Virus record (IMG/VR): IMGVR_UViG_3300037847_001887
Coordinates: 1 to 20,489 of that record
Source of the DNA: a virus
Strand: one strand, 5' to 3'
DNA: 20,489 nucleotides
In this document: one piece after another, positions 1,392 through 17,978 of the stretch
How positions within the stretch are numbered: the stretch's first letter is position 1
Layout of the letters: each line of letters opens with the position of its first letter
Translations under genes and position numbers: made by a program
The notes under the pieces: model-generated
What the model saw: only the letters and a program-made list of their open reading frames with translations
What the model was told of the DNA's origin: nothing
Databases searched by the model: none

Positions 1392-2747
1392 ATGGCAACT
1401 CCGGATGAAAAAAGACAAGCGGCTGAAAGGCTAATGCAAGTGGCTGATTTAGAAGAGGAAGCGGAAGATGCTAAATCTGAAATAGAAACTTCACTTGATA
1501 TTAAATTAACAGGGTTTTTACAAGACTTAGGAATTGTAGATGAGTCAGAGGCAATTATAAAAATTAGCCAAGAGTTTGGCATTAATGCTTCTATAGCAAG
1601 AAAGCACTTGGATAATTTTCCAGATAAATATTTGATAAAAGAACAATATGTTCCAGATATTGTCAAAGAAATGAGAAAAGAAAGAAGGGGTCTAAAAGGG
1701 GAATATAGAGACAAAATGTCAAAAGCAATTGACACTTTGATTGATGGTTATTCTGAACATTTAGAAAAGTGCATCGATAGTATCTATTGGTTGAGTCCCT
1801 ACAAACCAGCCCTACAGCAGATGCGATACACAGAGGGAGATTTACTGAAACTACATTCCGTTAAAGATGTGGCGACTCGAAGAAATATAATAGAACCAAT
1901 ATGTAAATATTGGGAGTCACAAATAGAGCAGAGTGGAATGCCCTATGGAGAAAAATATTCTGCCTTACAAAAGAAAATGAATATTTCTAAGAGAGAATTT
2001 AGGAAAAGGATTACAGACATAGGTAACATAAAAAAATCCATTAGGCAGGAAACTAACGAGTTCATCCTAAAATCTGTTTGTGATAACCAAGGGATTAGTG
2101 CTAGGGAAATTTTAGAGAGCATGCCACAGAAATTATACAAAAGAAACAGCATAAAAATGATACCGCAACTAGTTAAAAAATTAGACATTACAGATGTAGA
2201 TGGGGCATATTACAAATTGGATGATGAAATTAAGAAAAACATTTGGGCTTATACTGCGGCTTTCATAGATTCCGATGGATATATTACAGTGGATAGGAGT
2301 ATGAATCCTAGAGTTGGTTTGGTTGCTACAGGTGATAGGGGTAAGGCTTTCATGTTGGAAATACACAAGGCTATCGGTTTTGGTAGATTGCACCTAGACC
2401 AAAAATCTCCACAAAATACTAGACCTGTTAATAGATTAAACTTTTATTCTCAAGATGATGTGAGAAAATTATTAACCCATTGTAGGCCGCACTTTAGAAT
2501 GAAGGGTAAGAATGCAGACCTTCTCTTAGAATTAGTTAGGATGAAAAAATCGCATAAGAAGGCAGAATGGTATAAGCAAAGGTGTGACGAAATCTTCAAA
2601 TTAATGAAATATGAAAACCATAAAGACCATGTTGGATATGATTTTACTAAAGATAACATAGATATCGAAACTGTAGCAAAGTTACACAACAATTGTAAAA
2701 TGAATATTATGGATGAACTAGAAAATGTTGGAGCGATATTAGCATGA
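1392..2747 (+). CDS. Winged-helix protein with C-terminal LAGLIDADG endonuclease-like domain
   Basis: 451 residues. ATG follows GGTGAT at 1383-1388. Residues 1-220 are helical and charged and of no recognised family. Residues 223-280 look like a winged helix (NQGISAREILESMPQ... then a short beta wing). Residues 283-405 match a single LAGLIDADG domain: the core YTAAFIDSDGYITV (287-300) has the two helix-end aspartates Asp293 and Asp295, followed by a beta-rich stretch and a PHFRMKGKNADLLLELV segment typical of these enzymes. With one motif copy it would act as a dimer, either as a homing endonuclease or as a DNA-binding protein that has lost cutting. It sits directly after the terminase and overlaps the lyase gene by 4 bases (ATGA), so the two are translationally coupled. 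It could alternatively be a diverged small terminase that acquired the domain. No sign of intein splicing was seen. Confidence 0.72.
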   Translation: MATPDEKRQAAERLMQVADLEEEAEDAKSEIETSLDIKLTGFLQDLGIVDESEAIIKISQEFGINASIARKHLDNFPDKYLIKEQYVPDIVKEMRKERRGLKGEYRDKMSKAIDTLIDGYSEHLEKCIDSIYWLSPYKPALQQMRYTEGDLLKLHSVKDVATRRNIIEPICKYWESQIEQSGMPYGEKYSALQKKMNISKREFRKRITDIGNIKKSIRQETNEFILKSVCDNQGISAREILESMPQKLYKRNSIKMIPQLVKKLDITDVDGAYYKLDDEIKKNIWAYTAAFIDSDGYITVDRSMNPRVGLVATGDRGKAFMLEIHKAIGFGRLHLDQKSPQNTRPVNRLNFYSQDDVRKLLTHCRPHFRMKGKNADLLLELVRMKKSHKKAEWYKQRCDEIFKLMKYENHKDHVGYDFTKDNIDIETVAKLHNNCKMNIMDELENVGAILA

Positions 2748-3571
2748 ATATTTATGAGGTAGCACCTAGGGATGGAATACAGAACTCACCTGTTCCAATA
2801 TCTACCTCTGAAAAAGTATTTATGATTGAGTCCCTACATTCTGCCGGAATTAAAAATATGGAAATTACTTCCTTCGTCAACCCTAAACTAGTTCCTCAAA
2901 TGTCTGATGCCGCAGAAGTGTTTCAACAAACTAAACATCTAGGAAATTTCGATGTACTAATTCCTAATAAAAGAGGGTTCGATAATGCTAAGAATATAGG
3001 GGCGAAGAATTTTAACATATTCTTTTCACCTTCCAAAGAATTTAACCATAGGAATTTGAACAGAACATTAGATGAAAAGTTTGAGGAATTGGATTCTATG
3101 TTAGTAGAAACAGATAGGAGTAATGTTAGAGCATATATTTCCTGTGCATTTGGGTGTCCCTTTGAAGGAAAGCCATCTGAATATGCTCTAAAAAACGCTA
3201 TGCTCAAAGCAGACTATCTGGCAGATACGATAGTTTTGTGTGATACTATTGGGGTGGCTCATCCTACCCAAATGCTACAAACTCTAGAACTAACCAAAGG
3301 GTTAGATGCTGAAATAGCCCTTCATTTACATGAGAATAAAAAAATAAGGAATGATATATTTTCTAATGTTAAGGTCGCTGTTGAATGGGGAGTTGAGACA
3401 TTTGATTCAAGTATTAATGGGTTAGGTGGATGCCCATTTATACCTAACAGTGGGGGTAATTTATCTACTAATAGGTTAATAAATTGGGCAAATGATAATG
3501 GCTATGAGACTGGAATAGAACTAGAAAACCTTAGAGAAATCACCGAATGGGTTAATAGAAAACATAGTTAA
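2744..3571 (+). CDS. HMG-CoA lyase-like DRE-TIM metallolyase
   Basis: 275 residues, a little shorter than cellular HMG-CoA lyases (about 300). The family cleaves 3-hydroxy-3-methylglutaryl-CoA to acetyl-CoA and acetoacetate using a divalent metal. Family signatures run in order: EVAPRDGIQN (5-14), MEITSFVNPKLVPQM (39-53), YISCAFGCPFEGK (131-143), CDTIG (166-170), LHLHEN (193-198), GLGGCP (226-231) and GGNLST (237-242). Residues equivalent to the human enzyme's Arg41, Asp42, Glu72, Asp204, His233, His235, Cys266 and Asn275 are all present (Arg9, Asp10, Glu40, Asp167, His194, His196, Cys230, Asn239). The usual Asp after the second metal His is Glu here. The shortening is at the C-terminus. It is coupled to the upstream gene by an ATGA overlap and precedes the portal. 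Family assignment is strong; actual substrate is inference. No similar gene is expected in a head operon. Confidence 0.85.
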   Translation: MNIYEVAPRDGIQNSPVPISTSEKVFMIESLHSAGIKNMEITSFVNPKLVPQMSDAAEVFQQTKHLGNFDVLIPNKRGFDNAKNIGAKNFNIFFSPSKEFNHRNLNRTLDEKFEELDSMLVETDRSNVRAYISCAFGCPFEGKPSEYALKNAMLKADYLADTIVLCDTIGVAHPTQMLQTLELTKGLDAEIALHLHENKKIRNDIFSNVKVAVEWGVETFDSSINGLGGCPFIPNSGGNLSTNRLINWANDNGYETGIELENLREITEWVNRKHS

Positions 3572-3615: not shown

Positions 3616-5259
3616 ATGGCAGAAAAGAGAAGGTTTTCTTTGACCAATTTATTTAGGAAAACTACCCCTACTCCAGCAGACAGGGAAGTTTACAACATAG
3701 GCATACAAGAAAAAACACCTGCTCAATTATTAAATGGACCCCTAATTTACAATATAGTCCAAAATTCAGTTATTGTTAGAACCTGTATTACTCAATTAAA
3801 ACAGGAAGTTTTCAGAAGAGGATATGTCTGGGAAAAAGCCTACGAAGCAAGATGTAATAATTGTGGAAAGGAACATAAGAGACCTGTTCAAGAATGTTCT
3901 AGGTGTGGAAGTACAGACTTAAAAGTTCCAGATGTTAAACAATTAGAATATGCTGAAAAGTTCTTGGAAGGATATGTTAATTCATCAGAACAATTATTCA
4001 TTGATGTTCTTAAAGAATTAGAAGATGACTTGAATATTATGGATGATGCCTATATTGTATTTGTAAAAGAGTATTATATTGATGGTAATGGTAAAATTAG
4101 AATGCATCGCATTAAAGAAATTTTTAGAGGAGACCCTGTTACTATGCACATTTATGCTGATGAAGAGGGAACAAGAGGAACTAAAGGATTCACTTGTATT
4201 CACCATAGAGAAATAATAGTTAAAGAGCCACATGAAAATTGTGAGATTTGTGGAGATGCACTTTATCCAGTTCATTATGTAAATAGGGCAAAGGATAAAG
4301 ACCAGCATTTTATCAAAGGAGAAGTTTTACATTTCAGTAAATATAGTCCTAGTAGACTCTATGGCCTATCCCCTATTCTCACACTATACAACCATATCAT
4401 GACTCTTATTGCTATGGAGAATTATGTCAATGCTTCCTATACTAAGAGTAGAATGCCAAGGGGATTACTTGCAGTTCAAACTCGTAATATGGAGTCTATG
4501 ATGAGTTTTTGGCGTGGGGTTAAAGAAAGAATGGAACAAGACCCCCACTATATTCCTGTAATGGGAGTGGAAAGTGAAGGTGGAAAGGGTTCTATTGAAT
4601 GGATTAAGTTCATGGATAGTCTAAAAGAAATGGATTATATTTCTGTAAAGGATGATTTAAGAGATAGAATTTCTGCTTTCTTTGGAGTTAGTAAAATATT
4701 CATGGCGGATTCTACCGCAAGTGGTGGATTAAATAATGAAGGAATGCAAATACTTGTAACTAATAGGGCAGTTCAGATGGCTCAAAATGTGTATAATGAA
4801 TATGTATTCCCATTCCTCACTACACAATTTGGTATTACTGATTGGAATTTGAAACTACCTCCTTCCGAAGAAGAAGATGAAATTGCTAAATTAAGGCAAA
4901 GGGAAATCCAAGTTAATATTGCTGCCTCGACTAAAAATTTAGGGTTTGAAGTGGATATGGATGAAGATGGTAACTTTACTTTTACTAAGCCAGAACCAAA
5001 AGAACAAGAAGGTGGAGAAGAACAAGAAGAAATTGAATTAGACCCGTATGCTGGAACTAATATAGATAGGAGTCAATTGGGACAGATGATGGAAGAAGGA
5101 ACTAAGCCTACTATGGAAGATGCTGGAAAACCAGCAAAGGTTAAATCTAATAGAAATAAGCCGAGTATGGAAACGGGACCCGATAAGAGATTTAGTGGGC
5201 TTCCTAAAGAAGCAGGAAATCAGAATGTAGATTCAAGAACAGAAAGGAGAGTTGGTTGA
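3616..5259 (+). CDS. Portal protein with two embedded zinc-binding-like segments
   Basis: 547 residues. ATG is preceded by GGAGGT at 3604-3609. Forms the ring at the capsid vertex through which DNA enters. Portal-like core: GPLIYNIVQNSVIVRTCITQLK (41-62, N-terminal region of the clip/stem fold) and KGEVLHFSKYSPSRLYGLSP (234-253), followed by a long helix with YTKSRMPRGLL and later FFGVSKIFMADSTASGG. Two insertions carry Cys/His sets: CNNC...CSRC (Cys80, Cys83, Cys94, Cys97), a classic zinc ribbon, and C-x-H-H...CEIC (Cys194, His196/197, Cys209, Cys212). The C-terminal ~100 residues are acidic then basic and probably disordered. Identification rests on these segments plus its position after the terminase. 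The zinc ribbons are unusual for a portal. Confidence 0.85.
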   Translation: MAEKRRFSLTNLFRKTTPTPADREVYNIGIQEKTPAQLLNGPLIYNIVQNSVIVRTCITQLKQEVFRRGYVWEKAYEARCNNCGKEHKRPVQECSRCGSTDLKVPDVKQLEYAEKFLEGYVNSSEQLFIDVLKELEDDLNIMDDAYIVFVKEYYIDGNGKIRMHRIKEIFRGDPVTMHIYADEEGTRGTKGFTCIHHREIIVKEPHENCEICGDALYPVHYVNRAKDKDQHFIKGEVLHFSKYSPSRLYGLSPILTLYNHIMTLIAMENYVNASYTKSRMPRGLLAVQTRNMESMMSFWRGVKERMEQDPHYIPVMGVESEGGKGSIEWIKFMDSLKEMDYISVKDDLRDRISAFFGVSKIFMADSTASGGLNNEGMQILVTNRAVQMAQNVYNEYVFPFLTTQFGITDWNLKLPPSEEEDEIAKLRQREIQVNIAASTKNLGFEVDMDEDGNFTFTKPEPKEQEGGEEQEEIELDPYAGTNIDRSQLGQMMEEGTKPTMEDAGKPAKVKSNRNKPSMETGPDKRFSGLPKEAGNQNVDSRTERRVG

Positions 5260-8793: not shown

Positions 8794-11277
8794 ATGCCTA
8801 AAACCGGCCTTCTATTTGAGAAGGATAAATCAATTTCGAGTGAAATTCTTTCTCTATTTGAAAAATCAAGAGTAGCATATCTTTCTGCAAAGAGTGACCC
8901 AAAGAACTACGGTTCTCGATGGAGAAAGATTGTAGAAGATATTAGAGATTCTTATGATGATTTGGACTACTTAGGTGGACAACTAAAATCCTATATTACT
9001 GATGATATTATTTCTGATAAAGAAGTCCTTAATCCAGAAAGCCGTATTGCTAGTAAGTTATATGAAGGCATAAAACAAATGCGTTTTGAGTCGGATGATG
9101 TTCAAGACCCATTTGCTAAAAAATTCAAAGGAGATGTTTTAGAAGCATTGATGGAAGATAGTGGAGTAATGGTAAAGTTTATTCATTACGCTATTAGGTC
9201 TGATAATGAAGTTTTACCGGATGAACTTTATGCAATTAAAGATATAGAGCCGGATGATTTAACCGTTGGTCTAAAAGGAATGGATTTAGACCCCAAAGAT
9301 ATTCCCCTCTATATTACAGAACATTATGGTGATGGTAAAGATTCTAAGAAGATAGAAGGTAAAGTTAAGAATGGATTATCCATGCTTAAATTATTTTATA
9401 CTTCTAAAAATTCAGAAGAAGACTGGAACAAGTTATTAGGAGTCGAGTTAAAGAAGTCCGAAGAAGAAAAAGCGGCAATAGATTTCATCGTTCCAAACAA
9501 GCCAATGTATAGAATATTTGAATTAGAGGACATAGAAGACCTACAAGGCTTCACTGGAGAATATGTCATACAAGAAAAATATGATGGCATGAGAATACAA
9601 ATACATAAGATAGACAATAATGTTAAAATTTATTCGTATAATGAAAAAGATATTACAGATAAATGTAAGGCTCAAGTAGAAATAATGAAAGCAAAACATT
9701 TTGGAGACTGTATTCTTGATGCAGAATTAATTTTATTTGATGGGGATGAAGCACTACATAGAGCAGATACTATTGCACATGTATTCAAAAATAAATATAA
9801 AGATGCTCAATTAAGAGTTCATGTTTTTGATATTATGAGACATGATGATAGGGATATGACTCAAGAACCACTTAGGGATAGAATAGACATTTTGTTTACA
9901 AATTATTCTATGCACAGTGATGAAAAATTAGCGTTCCCTTCTAAAAAGGATACTAGAATTGCTGATAACATGAAAGACATGAAAGAATATAGTGAAGCAA
10001 TTATGGAAATGCCAACTGCGGAAGGTGTTGTAATTAAAGATATAGAATCTACATATTTCATCGGCACTAAGAAAAACCCAAAGTGGATTAAATGGAAGAA
10101 GTTTGTTGACTTGGATTTAATAGTTCTAAATAAAAAGAAAACCAAATCAAATATGTATTCCTATACATTAGGTGCGGGACCCGTTGATGAAGGTGAAGAA
10201 ATAAATGGTAGAAAATACATGAATGTTGGTAAAGCAAATAATACCAAATTAAATGTAGATATTGGAGAAATCTTGCGAGTTAAAGTAGATGAGGTAAAGG
10301 GTTCAGAAGATAAATTTACTATTTACAACGCAGTTGCTATAGAAATACCGGAAGTAGAGCATCCCGAAAAAATAGTAACTTTAGAAATGTTATCCAAAGA
10401 AACAAAACCTTCACTTAAATTTAAAACAAAGGCGTTAGAAAAAGGTATTCTAGTTACAGACCATATTCACGGAGAAGCGATTCTAAAATCTATGGATGGA
10501 TTTACATTATATGAATTCGAGAGAAATAATTTAATGTCAAAACATGCTATGTTAAATTTAGATTCTTGGAAATCAGATGCAGAAAATATAATGAAAACTA
10601 AACAAAGTGAACTTACAGTAGCAGTGTTTCAAAAGTTACAAGATGGTGCATTGAGCATGAAAGAGTTGCATAATTTTTTGGTAAAAGACTATGGCAGATT
10701 ATATGATACTGTTTTAGAAAGCAAGATGGATAAAATAAAAGATTGGTTTAGTGCTAGAGATGGTATTAGTTTTGATTCAAAAACGAACAAGTTTTTCGCT
10801 GACGAGGATAAGATAATGATGAAAGCAGAATATAAAACGCCATCAGAATATAGAAGTGGCGGCTTTAAAATCTATTCTAGAAAAGATGATGATTTAAATT
10901 TAGCAATCAAATTAAAAGACACTACAATTTCTTGGACTATTGATATTAATAGTGATGATGATATATTCAATCTATTTGGTAAGGCTGGTAAGTTCCCTGC
11001 TCAAGTTTCTACAACTCCTGCTATAGATGGAAAAATAATAGATGAAGGGGAAATAGAATTAGGTGTTCAAAAACAAGGCTACCACGAATACTTTTTGAAA
11101 GGTAATAAGTTTGAAACTAAATTACATGTTAGAGTAGTCCCTGTAGATGGAAATGAAATGTGGTTGGCTTGGACTGGTTACAAACAAACTCCAGCAGATA
11201 AAGAAGGGGATGAAGGTCTTTGGGATATAAATAAAGATAAGTATTCTAAATTAGTAATAAATCCGGAAAAAGAATAA
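8794..11277 (+). CDS. ATP-dependent DNA ligase with long N- and C-terminal extensions
   Basis: 827 residues; seals nicks in duplex DNA through a lysyl-AMP intermediate. Nucleotidyltransferase motifs in order: EKYDGMR (261-267, Lys262 the AMP-carrying lysine), DAEL (309-312), VHVFDIM (342-348), AEGVVIKD (409-416) and WIKWKK (431-436), then an OB-fold-like stretch to about 525. All core residues are present, so it should be active. Residues 1-230 are helical and do not show a recognised DNA-binding domain. Residues 530-827 are extra: a possible winged helix (about 605-670) and a beta-rich end (690-795) loosely resembling the LigD 3'-phosphoesterase domain but without its histidines. A ligase gene inside a head operon, between portal and protease, is unusual. 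ATG 8794 follows GTGAT at 8784-8788. Confidence 0.9.
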   Translation: MPKTGLLFEKDKSISSEILSLFEKSRVAYLSAKSDPKNYGSRWRKIVEDIRDSYDDLDYLGGQLKSYITDDIISDKEVLNPESRIASKLYEGIKQMRFESDDVQDPFAKKFKGDVLEALMEDSGVMVKFIHYAIRSDNEVLPDELYAIKDIEPDDLTVGLKGMDLDPKDIPLYITEHYGDGKDSKKIEGKVKNGLSMLKLFYTSKNSEEDWNKLLGVELKKSEEEKAAIDFIVPNKPMYRIFELEDIEDLQGFTGEYVIQEKYDGMRIQIHKIDNNVKIYSYNEKDITDKCKAQVEIMKAKHFGDCILDAELILFDGDEALHRADTIAHVFKNKYKDAQLRVHVFDIMRHDDRDMTQEPLRDRIDILFTNYSMHSDEKLAFPSKKDTRIADNMKDMKEYSEAIMEMPTAEGVVIKDIESTYFIGTKKNPKWIKWKKFVDLDLIVLNKKKTKSNMYSYTLGAGPVDEGEEINGRKYMNVGKANNTKLNVDIGEILRVKVDEVKGSEDKFTIYNAVAIEIPEVEHPEKIVTLEMLSKETKPSLKFKTKALEKGILVTDHIHGEAILKSMDGFTLYEFERNNLMSKHAMLNLDSWKSDAENIMKTKQSELTVAVFQKLQDGALSMKELHNFLVKDYGRLYDTVLESKMDKIKDWFSARDGISFDSKTNKFFADEDKIMMKAEYKTPSEYRSGGFKIYSRKDDDLNLAIKLKDTTISWTIDINSDDDIFNLFGKAGKFPAQVSTTPAIDGKIIDEGEIELGVQKQGYHEYFLKGNKFETKLHVRVVPVDGNEMWLAWTGYKQTPADKEGDEGLWDINKDKYSKLVINPEKE

Positions 11278-12525: not shown

Positions 12526-13869
12526 ATGGCAGGATACATTAACACAATTAGAGACTTAGAAGCAGAAACATACGGAATTGGTGGCGCATTTGGCGGCAAC
12601 GACATTCTAAAACAGGCAGGTGTAACACAAGGTTTGCACACTGCTCACGATATTGCAGATACAGCAGCATCCGGTGTAACCGGAATTAGCACTACAACTG
12701 GACTATACAATGTTCTTTACGGACAAAAAGTTTGGTCTATGTTAAACAGAGAAGTAAACGCACTATCTATGATTTCAAAGAGACCTTATACATCTTCCGG
12801 ATGGAGAGTTCTAAAGAGCAGACCTTTCGGTGGCTCTGGAAATACACTTGCAGAAGGACTACAAAGAGACGGAAGCGGTGGCGGAATTGGTGCAGATGAC
12901 GCACAATTTGATGAAATTGGTGGAGTAGCGGAAAACGCTGGACTATCAACTGCGGCTGATGGACTTGGTAGTATGGCTCCAACATATGCTCAACTATTTA
13001 TGAGTCCTAAAACTGTTGCACATCAATTCGATTTCAGCGAATTGGCTATGGAAATGGCAGCAATCGATGACGGAATTGGTGACATTAGAGCGCAATTGAG
13101 AGAAGATATGGGAATTGCTCACGCAGAAGCACAAAACATGATGCTTCTAACACCACTAGAAAACTATGGTGAAGCAAGCGCACTATCTAACATTGAGAGA
13201 AACTATACTTCTCTTAACAAAATCATTACAAGTCGTGCAGAACTTTTGGCTATTGACGGTGGAGTTATTGCTACTGATACTACAAGCGCATCAAACAACT
13301 TGGGTAAGATTTACGGAGACGAAAGATTCAGTGCGGCTTCTTTCCTAGATGCAGAAGTAGACTTTGGAAGCGGATACGCTAGTGGCGATGTTCGTTCTCT
13401 AACTCTAACACTATTGAACAACATGATTAGAAACCTAAGAATTGCTGGCGGTTCACCAAAAGTTATTCTAACAGGATATGACACTATTCAAGCAATCGCA
13501 GATTTGCTACAAAGCCAAGAAAGATTCATGGATAGAAAGGAAATTGTTCCAACTGTAAACGGTGTCCGTGGAGTAAAGGGAGCAGAAGTCGGATTTAGAG
13601 TAGCAACTTACTACGATATCCCACTAATTCCTTGTAAAGATATGGCTACTACTGGTGGAGCAAGTACAAAACTAAGTGATTTGCTTTTCCTTGACACAGA
13701 CCATCTATGGCTAGCAGTTATGAAACCAACACAATATTTCGAGGACGGTATTACTAATGGTAACCCATTCGGTGTTGGCAGACTAGGAAATCAAGCACTT
13801 TACCGAACAATTGGAGAAATGGGCTGTTCATTCTTTAAGGGTCAAGGAAAGATTACCAACATTCAGTGA
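12526..13869 (+). CDS. Major capsid protein, HK97 fold
   Basis: 447 residues; builds the icosahedral shell. ATG follows GAGGGGG with 8 bases between. Gly/Ser/Ala-rich N-terminus (about 1-60) is followed by YGQKVWSMLNREVNALSMISKRPYTSSGWRVL, an entry typical of HK97-type capsids in marine archaeal and bacterial viruses, a flexible loop region (about 105-150) and a helix-rich centre (SELAMEMAAIDDGIGDIRAQLREDM). The later segment RIAGGSPKVILTGYDTIQAIADLL (about 305-328) is typical of the capsid A-domain, and the end is QALYRTIGEMGCSFFKGQGKITNIQ. It has no attached scaffold domain, consistent with the separate scaffold upstream. The codon choice looks more uniform than in neighbouring genes (many GCA, CTA, GGA), as expected for a highly made protein. 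Assignment rests on sequence character plus position after the protease. Confidence 0.85.
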   Translation: MAGYINTIRDLEAETYGIGGAFGGNDILKQAGVTQGLHTAHDIADTAASGVTGISTTTGLYNVLYGQKVWSMLNREVNALSMISKRPYTSSGWRVLKSRPFGGSGNTLAEGLQRDGSGGGIGADDAQFDEIGGVAENAGLSTAADGLGSMAPTYAQLFMSPKTVAHQFDFSELAMEMAAIDDGIGDIRAQLREDMGIAHAEAQNMMLLTPLENYGEASALSNIERNYTSLNKIITSRAELLAIDGGVIATDTTSASNNLGKIYGDERFSAASFLDAEVDFGSGYASGDVRSLTLTLLNNMIRNLRIAGGSPKVILTGYDTIQAIADLLQSQERFMDRKEIVPTVNGVRGVKGAEVGFRVATYYDIPLIPCKDMATTGGASTKLSDLLFLDTDHLWLAVMKPTQYFEDGITNGNPFGVGRLGNQALYRTIGEMGCSFFKGQGKITNIQ

Positions 13870-15005: not shown

Positions 15006-15401
15006 ATGCCAGCACTAGCACACGATACAAGATTAGTTATGACTATCCTATTTGTAGGGACAGTTAGCGGAGCGAATGTTTTCTTTTATGCTAACTACGG
15101 AACTAATTTCCCATATACAACTTTAGCCCATGCCACATTATTTGGATTAATTACCGTTGGTTCTATAATGATTTTAAAGGCGATATTCGATTTAGCCCTA
15201 AATGAAAAGATAGAAATGTATCTATTAGATAGAAGGGTTAGTCACTTTTGGGCGCAAAAGAGAAAGGAAGAAGAACAAAAACAAAAAATTAGAGAAACAA
15301 TGAAGAATTATAATACTGCTTATAATACTCAACCACAATTTGTTTCTCAAATTGAAACAGAAGGAATAGGGAACGAGTTTTTAGCGGCTATCGAACAGTG
15401 A
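15006..15401 (+). CDS. Two-helix membrane protein, unknown
   Basis: 131 residues. ATG 15006 follows GGTGA by 4 bases. Two hydrophobic helices (about 9-29 and 40-63) form a hairpin, followed by a charged cytoplasmic-type tail with a short coiled coil (QKRKEEEQKQKIRETMK) and a Gln/Asn-rich end. Holin-like proteins can have this shape, but its place directly before another membrane protein and a membrane-anchored GTPase suggests these three act together. No family recognised. Confidence 0.7.
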   Translation: MPALAHDTRLVMTILFVGTVSGANVFFYANYGTNFPYTTLAHATLFGLITVGSIMILKAIFDLALNEKIEMYLLDRRVSHFWAQKRKEEEQKQKIRETMKNYNTAYNTQPQFVSQIETEGIGNEFLAAIEQ

Positions 15402-15406
15402 GGTGA
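15402..15406 (+). promoter_or_regulatory. Ribosome binding site deciding TTG 15412
   Basis: GGTGA with 5 bases to TTG 15412. An in-frame GTG at 15403 lies inside the site. The site also overlaps the end of the upstream gene, indicating coupled translation. Confidence 0.7.
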
Positions 15407-15411
15407 GCCAT

Positions 15412-15624
15412 TTGGTTTTTACCGGATTCGATGAAAGTGCTATGGCATATGACCTACAAAGAGCGCACTCTGCTGATATTTGGTTTCTAAAATTTAGAGC
15501 CTATTTTTGGGGAGGTTGCGCTACTTTAGCGGGTTTCTTAATAGGAAATATACTTGGAGTATTTGATATTAATATCCTAGGGTGGATTCTAGGAACTTTA
15601 CAAGATGCTTGGAATCATATTTAG
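15412..15624 (+). CDS. Small membrane protein, unknown
   Basis: 70 residues from TTG 15412. A polar N-terminus with aromatic residues (DIWFLKFRAYFWGG) leads into a hydrophobic helix (about 33-50), then an amphipathic or second membrane helix (54-68, INILGWILGTLQDAW). Size and shape fit a holin or a small membrane adaptor. It lies between the two-helix protein and the GTPase with 10-base gaps. Confidence 0.65.
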   Translation: MVFTGFDESAMAYDLQRAHSADIWFLKFRAYFWGGCATLAGFLIGNILGVFDINILGWILGTLQDAWNHI

Positions 15625-15634
15625 GTGATTAGAT

Positions 15635-16297
15635 GTGTCAGTATTAGCAGGGTTCGCTATTGTTATTACAGAATTTGCTATTGGTTTTTATAAAAAAATT
15701 CACGCTATAAACTTTGGAGTTTACGGAGCAACTAAGGTAGGGAAAACTACCTTACACCATCAATTAAGAACTAGGGGTGAAGTTCCCGACATAAAAAAAA
15801 GAACCGTTGGTTTACATAAAGGAACTAGAAAAACAATCAAGTTAGAGGGAGAAACCCACACTGTAAAAACAGCAGATGTTGGTGGTGAATCTTTTTATTG
15901 GAAAGAATGGATTAAAGACATGAAAAGAAGAAAGGTAAATTATATTATTTTCATGATAGACCATAGACATTTAGATAGTGGCGCAAATTTAGAACACCAA
16001 CTGGCTTGGAAATTTTTAGTTGACTCGATTTGTTCTACTAGATGGCCTAATGGAAAAAAGAAGAAGGACAACGAGTATCCTTTAGCCATAGGCGTTTGGG
16101 CGAACAAATTTGACATTTGGAATAAAAAACACCCCCACAAAGGGGAAATACAAGACCACCCCATCTTCGAGCCTTTTAAATATGGGATGCAACGGTTAAA
16201 TGATAGAGGGATTCCTACTTTCAAGTATATTGTGTCGGCTAAATCACAACCGGAAATGGTTTACAGGGGAGTTACAACAATGATAAAGGATTATTGA
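15635..16297 (+). CDS. Membrane-anchored Arf/SR-beta-like small GTPase
   Basis: 220 residues from GTG 15635, with GGTGAT at 15624-15629. A hydrophobic N-terminal helix (3-19) is followed by a full G domain: G1 GATKVGKTT (31-39), G2 Thr57 in RTVGL (Arf family TIGF), G3 DVGGE (81-85), G4 NKFD (157-160) and G5 SAK (201-203). The DVGG form and a Trp shortly after (YWKEW) point to the Arf branch rather than Ras or translation GTPases. The catalytic Gln of Arf (DVGGQ) is Glu85, so hydrolysis may be slow or depend on a partner. There is a short Lys-rich insertion before G4 (residues 139-147). Likely a GTP switch on the inner face of the host membrane. Unusual in a virus head operon. Motif evidence is strong; cellular role is unknown. 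Confidence 0.88.
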   Translation: MSVLAGFAIVITEFAIGFYKKIHAINFGVYGATKVGKTTLHHQLRTRGEVPDIKKRTVGLHKGTRKTIKLEGETHTVKTADVGGESFYWKEWIKDMKRRKVNYIIFMIDHRHLDSGANLEHQLAWKFLVDSICSTRWPNGKKKKDNEYPLAIGVWANKFDIWNKKHPHKGEIQDHPIFEPFKYGMQRLNDRGIPTFKYIVSAKSQPEMVYRGVTTMIKDY

Positions 16298-16302
16298 TTA
16301 CT

Positions 16303-16665
16303 ATGTGGAAGATGATTTTAAAAGAAAATGGCTTTTTAGTCTATCTAAAAAAAGCCGAAACTAATGATGGATATTTGCCGGAAAACGCTGACTTTAAGAC
16401 TAGAGATGAAGCCTTTGATTATATCAAAGGAATGGCAAAACAAGTAGGATATACAGTAGTAGGTAGTGCTAAAGAAGGTAAAGTAGTAAAGATGGATAAT
16501 GAAATATTTCAAAGTCTTACTTCTCCTTCTCTTTATTATGTTATTAAAATGAATTCCGAAGGTAAACCATCAAATAATTATACTCCCGATACTCGCCAAT
16601 CTAATACAGGGGAAGGCACAAGAAGAAAGTTTAGAGGCGAGTTTGAATTAGATGAAGAATATTAA
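16303..16665 (+). CDS. Small protein, unknown
   Basis: 121 residues from ATG 16303; an in-frame TTG at 16294 would overlap the GTPase stop by 4 bases and is also possible, with AAAGGA at 16285-16290 as a weak ribosome site. N-terminal domain MWKMILKENGFLVYLKKAET... with a helix DEAFDYIKGMAKQ and strand VGYTVVGSA resembles a small alpha/beta fold. The C-terminal third (from YVIKMNSEGKPSNNYTPD) is polar and probably disordered. Directly follows the GTPase, so a partner role is possible but untested. Confidence 0.68.
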   Translation: MWKMILKENGFLVYLKKAETNDGYLPENADFKTRDEAFDYIKGMAKQVGYTVVGSAKEGKVVKMDNEIFQSLTSPSLYYVIKMNSEGKPSNNYTPDTRQSNTGEGTRRKFRGEFELDEEY

Positions 16666-17324: not shown

Positions 17325-17978
17325 ATGTTTGGAACAAGTAACGGCACAGTATTAACTGCGGTTCAAGCACAAGGCGACCAACAGTTCAAGAGTATGAATA
17401 ATTTATTATCTTTACAAGATAATCATGTAGAAGAATTCTTTCAATATCATGGAGAGAAATTTTTAGTAACTTTTGAAAAACTAATAGAAGATGTAGTAGA
17501 AAGAGTAGTTAGCCAAATGCTAGTAAAACTACAATTAATTCAAGATGATACCACTAAAAGTATTAAAGTTCATCCAGATTCTCTAAGAGAATACGAAAGA
17601 ATTACTCAAGAAAATATTCAATTAGATATTATCAATTTGTTAAATTCTGCCATAGATGCAGAAGTAATAAACCAAAGAAAGATGGCAAAACAACAATACT
17701 TGGAGTCACAAGGATTTGGTGGGGGAATGCCACAACAAATTTCAGCAGGTGCGGCATTAGCAGGAGTTACAGGAAATGCACAACAGTATCAACAAATGCA
17801 GGGGGCTATGAATAATGGTACTGGCTATCCTGTTCCTCCAAATGGAACTGATGCTTATGGTAGGCCATACTGGATAGACCCACAGACAGGGCAAACTTTG
17901 TATGAACCTCCTAAAAGTGGGCTAGGATTAGGTAGTGCTATTCAAAAAGGTGCGGCTTGGGCTAAATGGTTAATGTGA
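17325..17978 (+). CDS. Helical protein with Gln/Gly-rich, WW-like C-terminus
   Basis: 217 residues. Residues 15-125 are long helices (EEFFQYHGEKFLVTFEKLIEDVVERVVSQ and later QLDIINLLNSAID). Residues 126-170 are Gly/Gln/Asn-rich. Residues 178-196 (YGRPYWIDPQTGQTLYEPP) resemble the second half of a WW domain, which usually binds proline-rich peptides. Hydrophobic patch at the end (SAIQKGAAWAKWLM). Possibly a virion assembly protein; no family recognised. Confidence 0.7.
   Translation: MFGTSNGTVLTAVQAQGDQQFKSMNNLLSLQDNHVEEFFQYHGEKFLVTFEKLIEDVVERVVSQMLVKLQLIQDDTTKSIKVHPDSLREYERITQENIQLDIINLLNSAIDAEVINQRKMAKQQYLESQGFGGGMPQQISAGAALAGVTGNAQQYQQMQGAMNNGTGYPVPPNGTDAYGRPYWIDPQTGQTLYEPPKSGLGLGSAIQKGAAWAKWLM

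Follow-up and report, generated by a model that had tools for sequence, protein, structure and literature searches.

The virus analysed here encodes a small GTPase in its head operon, and this GTPase belongs to the core gene set of one large magrovirus clade, in which it follows two small predicted membrane proteins at a fixed position. The protein is among the best-conserved magrovirus proteins of its clade, and it is a putative switch of the kind that governs membranes in eukaryotic cells. The window, that is the whole stretch of DNA under study, is a virus record of 20,489 bases and represents a genome fragment.

A small GTPase with intact G motifs

The sequence-only reading had listed all five G motifs of a small GTPase in their canonical order, and this is borne out, as they can be read directly in the 220-residue product. 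The gene and its motifs are as follows.

15635..16297, + strand: GTPase gene, GTG start, 220 aa; small GTPase
15635..15706, + strand: N-terminal helix, residues 1-24, leading directly into G-domain strand 1
15725-15751, + strand: G1 motif GATKVGKTT, residues 31-39
15800-15811, + strand: switch-1 RTVG (R56-T57-V-G59)
15875-15889, + strand: G3 motif DVGGE, residues 81-85
16100-16114, + strand: G4 motif ANKFD, residues 156-160
16235-16243, + strand: G5 motif SAK, residues 201-203

An IMG/VR protein search yielded 99 confirmed relatives and an alignment search yielded 360. Across 97 non-redundant homologues, G31, G36-K37-T38-T39, R56, T57, G59, D81, G83 and G84 are invariant, and so are N157, K158, D160, S201, A202 and K203. 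The dN/dS of the gene is about 0.06, as against 0.10 for the capsid protein, and an M-S start is common to 168 of the 172 homologues, which supports the annotated start. Because the key residues are invariant, the dN/dS is low and the start is shared, the G motifs are not a product of chance; a chance ORF at 15635-16297 is ruled out by conservation. The opposite strand of this interval is stop-rich throughout. The NCBIfam model small_GTP matches the window protein with an E-value of 2.3e-5, under its cut-off, and a non-GTPase P-loop protein is ruled out by the G4 and G5 motifs together with the fold described below. The product of 15635-16297 is almost certainly a small (Ras-like) GTPase of the TRAFAC class.

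In Ras, Glu in place of Gln61 still permits hydrolysis. The equivalent position in the viral family is occupied by Glu in 155 and by Gln in 17 of the 172 homologues, and by Glu in 35 and Gln in 30 members of a second, capsid-based sample, with no other residue in either. Glu dominates, and Gln is confined within one clade, where it arose via one or a few changes. The restriction to these two residues is as expected if GTP hydrolysis has been retained, and on this substitution pattern the site looks constrained for catalysis.

Predicted fold

The sequence-only reading had pointed to structure prediction and a fold search as a check, and these yielded a G-domain fold with small GTPases as nearest neighbours. 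The AlphaFold model that we use, the second, was built from 97 sequences and has a pLDDT of 77 and a pTM of 0.77, the P-loop and switch 1 being modelled with weak confidence. Its deeper alignment supersedes a poor first model from 25 sequences (pTM 0.64), for which the matches listed (50) were all G-alpha complexes. In VIA-align, where we count Z gaps under 1 as ties, the closest chains include Arl1 (Z 15.9 over 162 residues at 2.7 Å), ARF6 (15.7), an Asgard RagA-like protein (15.5), an Asgard Arf-related protein (15.2), G-alpha (14.5) and Rab (14.2). As many as 999 of the 1000 chains aligned reach a Z of 8 or higher, the top matches listed are all GTPases, and the viral proteins named among the best 50 are Ras, Rab, Ran and G-alpha proteins of giant viruses. 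The predicted fold is that of a small GTPase; Arf and Rag lead by a narrow margin, and the model supports nothing finer.

Relationship to the Arf family

The protein had been read as an Arf-type GTPase, and part of that reading stands: the fold rank, the D-x-G-G of the G3 motif and the helix before strand 1 are all in its favour. Membership of the Arf family, however, is not supported, with the fold in a near-tie with Rag and G-alpha, profiles that do not separate the families, a 24-residue spacing and a G5 motif of Ras/Rab type. Of the two signatures that had been called Arf-type, DVGG is present but continues with Glu (DVGGE), whereas the canonical Arf motif is DVGGQ, and the Thr-(I/V)-G of switch 1 is present but is common to Rab too. 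D-x-G-G is kept in all 172 homologues, the fifth residue being Glu in 155/172 and Gln in 17/172.

The distance from the switch-1 Thr to the G3 Asp is 24 residues in all 172 homologues; we take the same spacing to be 19 in Arf1, Arf6, Arl1 and Arl3, and also in G-alpha, and 22-23 in Ras/Rab. The short interswitch of 19 residues is the basis of the Arf interswitch toggle. HHalign comparison of the viral family gives E-values of 4.7e-6 with Arf and 3.3e-6 with Ras and does not separate the two; of the reference sequences used for HHalign and for the spacings, G-alpha-i1 is the one checked against the PDB. The window protein matches no Pfam family at its cut-off, and PF00025 (Arf) is not listed for it at E <= 1, with a weak match in 24 of 97 family members. 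PF01926 is the commonest weak Pfam match of the family, and PF09439 (SR-beta) matches 90 of 97 members weakly (best E 5.5e-5). Residue 2 is Ser in 168 of the 172 homologues, which therefore do not have the N-myristoylatable Gly2, and the 21 residues between G36 and T57 mean that there is no all-helical insert of G-alpha type. Since the interswitch length, SAK, Ser2 and the Pfam and HHalign comparisons speak against Arf membership, we regard the viral GTPase as a family of its own among the small G proteins of Ras/Arf type.

The N-terminal helix

A membrane helix had been proposed at the N-terminus, and for the window protein this is plausible, as residues 1-17 are strongly hydrophobic (KD 2.06). 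For the family it is less so: Glu13 is invariant in the 168 GTPases with the standard start, and 26 of the 172 homologues fall short of a lenient TM threshold. The helix spans residues 3-22 in the AlphaFold model; across the family, residues 3-12 are hydrophobic and residues 11-24 amphipathic (moment 0.41), with N16/K17 frequent. S2, G6, F7 and E13 are kept in nearly all homologues, and S2, G6 and E13 lie roughly on one helix face, as if this face bound a partner. Judged by its hydrophobicity, membrane anchoring of the window protein is plausible; insertion of the helix may be peripheral, by analogy with the Arf and ArvA helices. For many relatives, the residue patterns would fit better with a short, amphipathic helix, inserted or partner-bound, than with a free spanning anchor.

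The cassette and its neighbours

The following genes accompany the GTPase in the window.

12526..13869, + strand: major capsid protein (HCTV-5/HVTV-1 type), the head-module marker
15006..15401, + strand: TM131, 131 aa, two predicted TM helices, charged C-terminal tail
15403..15624, + strand: TM73, 73 aa, one predicted TM helix
16676..17323, + strand: o215, conserved Cys/His cluster (CVVCG...CPKH), downstream of the GTPase in nearly all loci
17325..17978, + strand: o217, conserved Pro-rich C-terminus

The head-operon location given by the sequence-only reading is correct: terminase, portal, prohead protease and capsid genes are present, and the GTPase gene sits between the capsid genes and a head-tail adaptor-like gene. 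TM131 is upstream in the cassette at every locus checked, the N-terminus of TM73 is conserved (YDLQRAHSADIWFL), and the predicted TM helices (two in TM131, one in TM73) are found in nearly all members. The intergenic gaps of TM131-TM73-GTPase are mostly about 0-15 nt. The genes whose distances track those of the GTPase most closely are o217 (partial r 0.44) and TM73 (0.40), a weak, suggestive hint of possible contact among genes that all share one tree. The conserved C-terminal stretch of o217, YGRPYWIDPQTGQTLYEPP, has a weak likeness to the WW domain (E 6.5e-4, under cut-off). Between the GTPase and o215 lies a 123-aa ORF (16294-16665, + strand), which is present in one other locus of the set alone and is probably a recent insertion.

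Virus identity

The capsid and portal proteins of the window are nearest to those of Haloarcula viruses of HVTV-1/HCTV-5 type, in agreement with the earlier view of a tailed virus with an archaeal host. An HVTV-1/HCTV-5-like capsid and portal are characteristic of Magrovirales, and the size, expected at about 90-110 kb, was judged from records of relatives, the long records homologous to the window being 84-103 kb. Between the terminase and the portal lies an HMG-CoA lyase-like gene (2744-3571, + strand; NCBIfam PRK05692, E 2e-71, just under cut-off), such as has been described for Aoguangviridae (PMC10768690). On the strength of these HVTV-1/HCTV-5-type head genes, the 84-103 kb relatives and the HMG-CoA lyase-like gene, gene content assigns the virus to the magroviruses. 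The magrovirus literature gives Poseidoniales as the host.

Within the head operon, just upstream of the prohead protease, an 827-aa ATP-dependent DNA ligase-like protein (8794-11277, + strand) is matched by ligase models in its middle only (about 220-480), with long N- and C-terminal parts unmatched, and the gene position is kept in about 150 related loci. A 451-aa protein by the terminase (1392-2747, + strand), with about 56-60% identity across the long records, has a LAGLIDADG-like stretch recognised by eye, FIDSDGYITVDRS, with no Pfam match, and is possibly a small-terminase-like protein that incorporates a homing-endonuclease-like domain. The portal (3616-5259, + strand) has apparent zinc-ribbon-like Cys pairs near its N-terminus, CNNCGKEHKRPVQECSRCG, and a later CEICG pair, with weak HypA/DZR matches.

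Conservation and distribution

The GTPase is present as a single copy in 22 of 22 long records (84-103 kb). To avoid circularity, loci were also sampled by the capsid gene alone, retaining those with at least 2.8 kb downstream of it, in two sets that are kept apart by query only and that each have contigs in common with the GTPase-based sets. The GTPase with TM131 and TM73 occurs in 59/59 and 65/65 of these loci (124/124). A search of related viruses for the same gene at the same position, the check proposed by the sequence-only reading, thus finds it there, behind TM131 and TM73 in every case. In the genome-wide ranking by identity the GTPase is 2nd of 46 proteins shared with G014, behind one terminase-position protein, and 5th of 51 shared with G009, and its conservation exceeds that of the capsid protein.

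In a sister magrovirus-like clade (L188-L260), sampled via the HCTV-5 capsid protein, profile searches found no counterpart to the GTPase or to TM131, TM73, o215 and o217, and a regular expression for the G-motif pattern matched none of the ORFs. Likewise, no GTPase homologue was found in HCTV-5 by profile or motif expression. PF01926 run over whole records found none, a search of low power that at E 0.1 also missed 16 GTPase-bearing records. The TM131-TM73-GTPase cassette therefore looks clade-specific. A thermosome-type chaperonin has a strong match in 8 of 9 long sister-clade records, whereas in the GTPase clade Cpn60 is either divergent or absent. In the cassette's place HCTV-5 carries gene 123 (L082 14328-14660), whose small product has a single predicted TM helix at its N-terminus and is flanked by a minor protein and a head-tail adaptor-like protein; a similar protein occurs in L186, and the positional match with the cassette is suggestive.

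The INPHARED phage set held no real match to the viral GTPase, and a scan of genome contigs for cellular homologues returned just two magrovirus contigs. These, L098 and L099, sit in a MAG labelled Maricaulis, an alphaproteobacterium, and most likely reflect genome contamination. ArvB (PF09846) was missing from 22/22 virus records in a search that detected its controls, which rules out a captured ArvABC operon.

Proposed role and alternative explanations

From the predicted fold, intact motifs, fixed cassette, strict conservation and head-module position of a protein whose members come from uncultured viruses, we infer a putative role in assembly or egress. The best explanation as a whole, held at somewhat less than even confidence, is a membrane-switch GTPase acting with TM131 and TM73. 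More particularly, we tentatively suggest a late membrane switch that, together with TM131 and TM73, organises assembly or egress at the host membrane. The GTPase would be made late, from the capsid operon, alongside TM131 and TM73. Its N-terminal helix would be embedded in the inner side of the host membrane or rest on it, probably up against TM73/TM131, with the G domain facing the cytoplasm, where it would switch between GDP and GTP and hydrolyse GTP through a catalytic Glu or Gln. When GTP-bound, it might recruit or polymerise viral partners at the membrane, the best candidate being o217. Assembling particles could thereby be docked, or the membrane deformed and opened for exit, as in ArvA vesiculation in Haloferax.

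A lysis or egress timer, in which TM131 (with TM73) forms a pore or disrupting patch whose opening the GTPase gates, is unlikely, although two small membrane proteins do stand in a fixed head-operon cassette and a review reports that isolated archaeal viruses have no identified holin gene and must lyse cells by another mechanism (PMC4456609). For archaeal viruses whose hosts lack a wall, exit has to differ from holin-endolysin lysis. TM131 and TM73 are about as conserved as structural proteins, and the sister clades without the cassette are nonetheless predicted to be lytic, both of which argue against a timer. Lysis proteins usually diverge fast. About as unlikely is a virion or morphogenesis factor, perhaps packaged, that serves as a checkpoint of head maturation or head-tail joining with its helix bound to a viral partner. 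The location of the gene between the capsid genes and the head-tail adaptor-like gene would suit such a factor, as would a constraint matching that on the terminase-position protein and the capsid protein; but TM131 and TM73 next to it are clearly membrane proteins by prediction, and to our knowledge tailed phages have no head-maturation GTPase, which counts against it.

Membrane regulation by small GTPases is found in Euryarchaeota, ArvA being an example (PMC10927574), and a host origin of the viral protein is plausible, so that it might instead imitate or antagonise a host small GTPase, be it a vesiculation switch like ArvA or some other regulator, for takeover, counter-defence or superinfection exclusion. 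The very low dN/dS and near-invariance across viruses are unlike an arms-race gene, and the head-operon position also speaks against this mimicry, which we consider improbable. We give still less credence to a static receptor like SR-beta, a GTP-bound membrane docking site that does not cycle: a putative N-terminal membrane helix followed by a G domain recalls SR-beta, and PF09439 is among the most frequent weak matches, but the limitation of the catalytic position to Glu/Gln suggests that hydrolysis is under selection. The membrane-switch reading itself has the short N-terminal helix of many members against it, and since sister magroviruses manage without the cassette, the role does not extend to tailed archaeal viruses at large.

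The sequence-only reading knew of no described role for such a GTPase in a tailed archaeal virus, and none was found in the literature searched. The search, which did not reach the founding magrovirus paper, found no description of a magrovirus GTPase, and the 2023 magrovirus survey, the 2021 archaeal tailed-virus survey and the Apasviridae and Aoguangviridae profiles mention no such GTPase. Magroviruses are possibly the third most abundant virus group of marine plankton (PMC10160649), and the route by which tailed archaeal viruses leave cells without peptidoglycan is an open problem (PMC4456609). A GTPase so strictly conserved, encoded with two membrane proteins in the head operon, offers a concrete, testable candidate for a membrane step. 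One lineage of tailed archaeal viruses may even possess, as an essential core function, a dedicated membrane-remodelling module made up of an Arf-like GTPase and two membrane proteins, with a G-protein switch running assembly or exit at an archaeal membrane, a possibility we rate slightly below the switch itself; if true, tailed viruses of prokaryotes would have their first example of a membrane step under G-protein control.

Comparison with known GTPase systems

Arf/Arl/Sar1 proteins resemble the viral GTPase in being the best fold match, in D-x-G-G and in a putative membrane-seeking helix immediately before strand 1, and Arf1 shares a Trp 11 residues past the G3 Asp. Unlike Arf, the viral protein has an interswitch of 24 rather than 19 residues, SAK in place of a CAT-type G5, Ser2, mostly Glu for the catalytic Gln, and no match to PF00025 in the window protein. 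G-alpha also has DVGG, and its DSICNNKW resembles the viral DSICSTRW, but in the viral protein the 21 residues from G1 to switch 1 leave out the helical domain, and there is no GPCR context. The GTPases of giant viruses are likewise virus-encoded, small and Rab/Ras-like, but differ in their eukaryotic hosts and their eukaryotic Ras/Rab/Ran annotation, and we know of none in a capsid operon.

SR-beta has an N-terminal membrane helix before its G domain, as the viral protein putatively does, with a weak PF09439 match in 90/97 members; this match is under cut-off for the window protein, and the window holds no SR-alpha partner. Compared with the single anchor of SR-beta, the viral helix is hydrophobic enough in the window but, in some family members, too short or too polar. 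By analogy, the closest functional precedent would be ArvA (OapA) of Haloferax volcanii, which, like the viral GTPase, is a single-domain small GTPase with an N-terminal amphipathic helix, a likeness drawn by description; ArvA is annotated as PF01926 (PMC10927574), to which the viral family has weak matches. Unlike the viral GTPase, ArvA is cellular and encoded in an operon with ArvB and ArvC. It is needed for vesicle budding, its overexpression leads to hypervesiculation, and its loss abolishes RNA-carrying vesicles (PMC10927574). Taken together with ArvA, the viral GTPase would extend to viruses the theme of euryarchaeal membranes under G-protein control.
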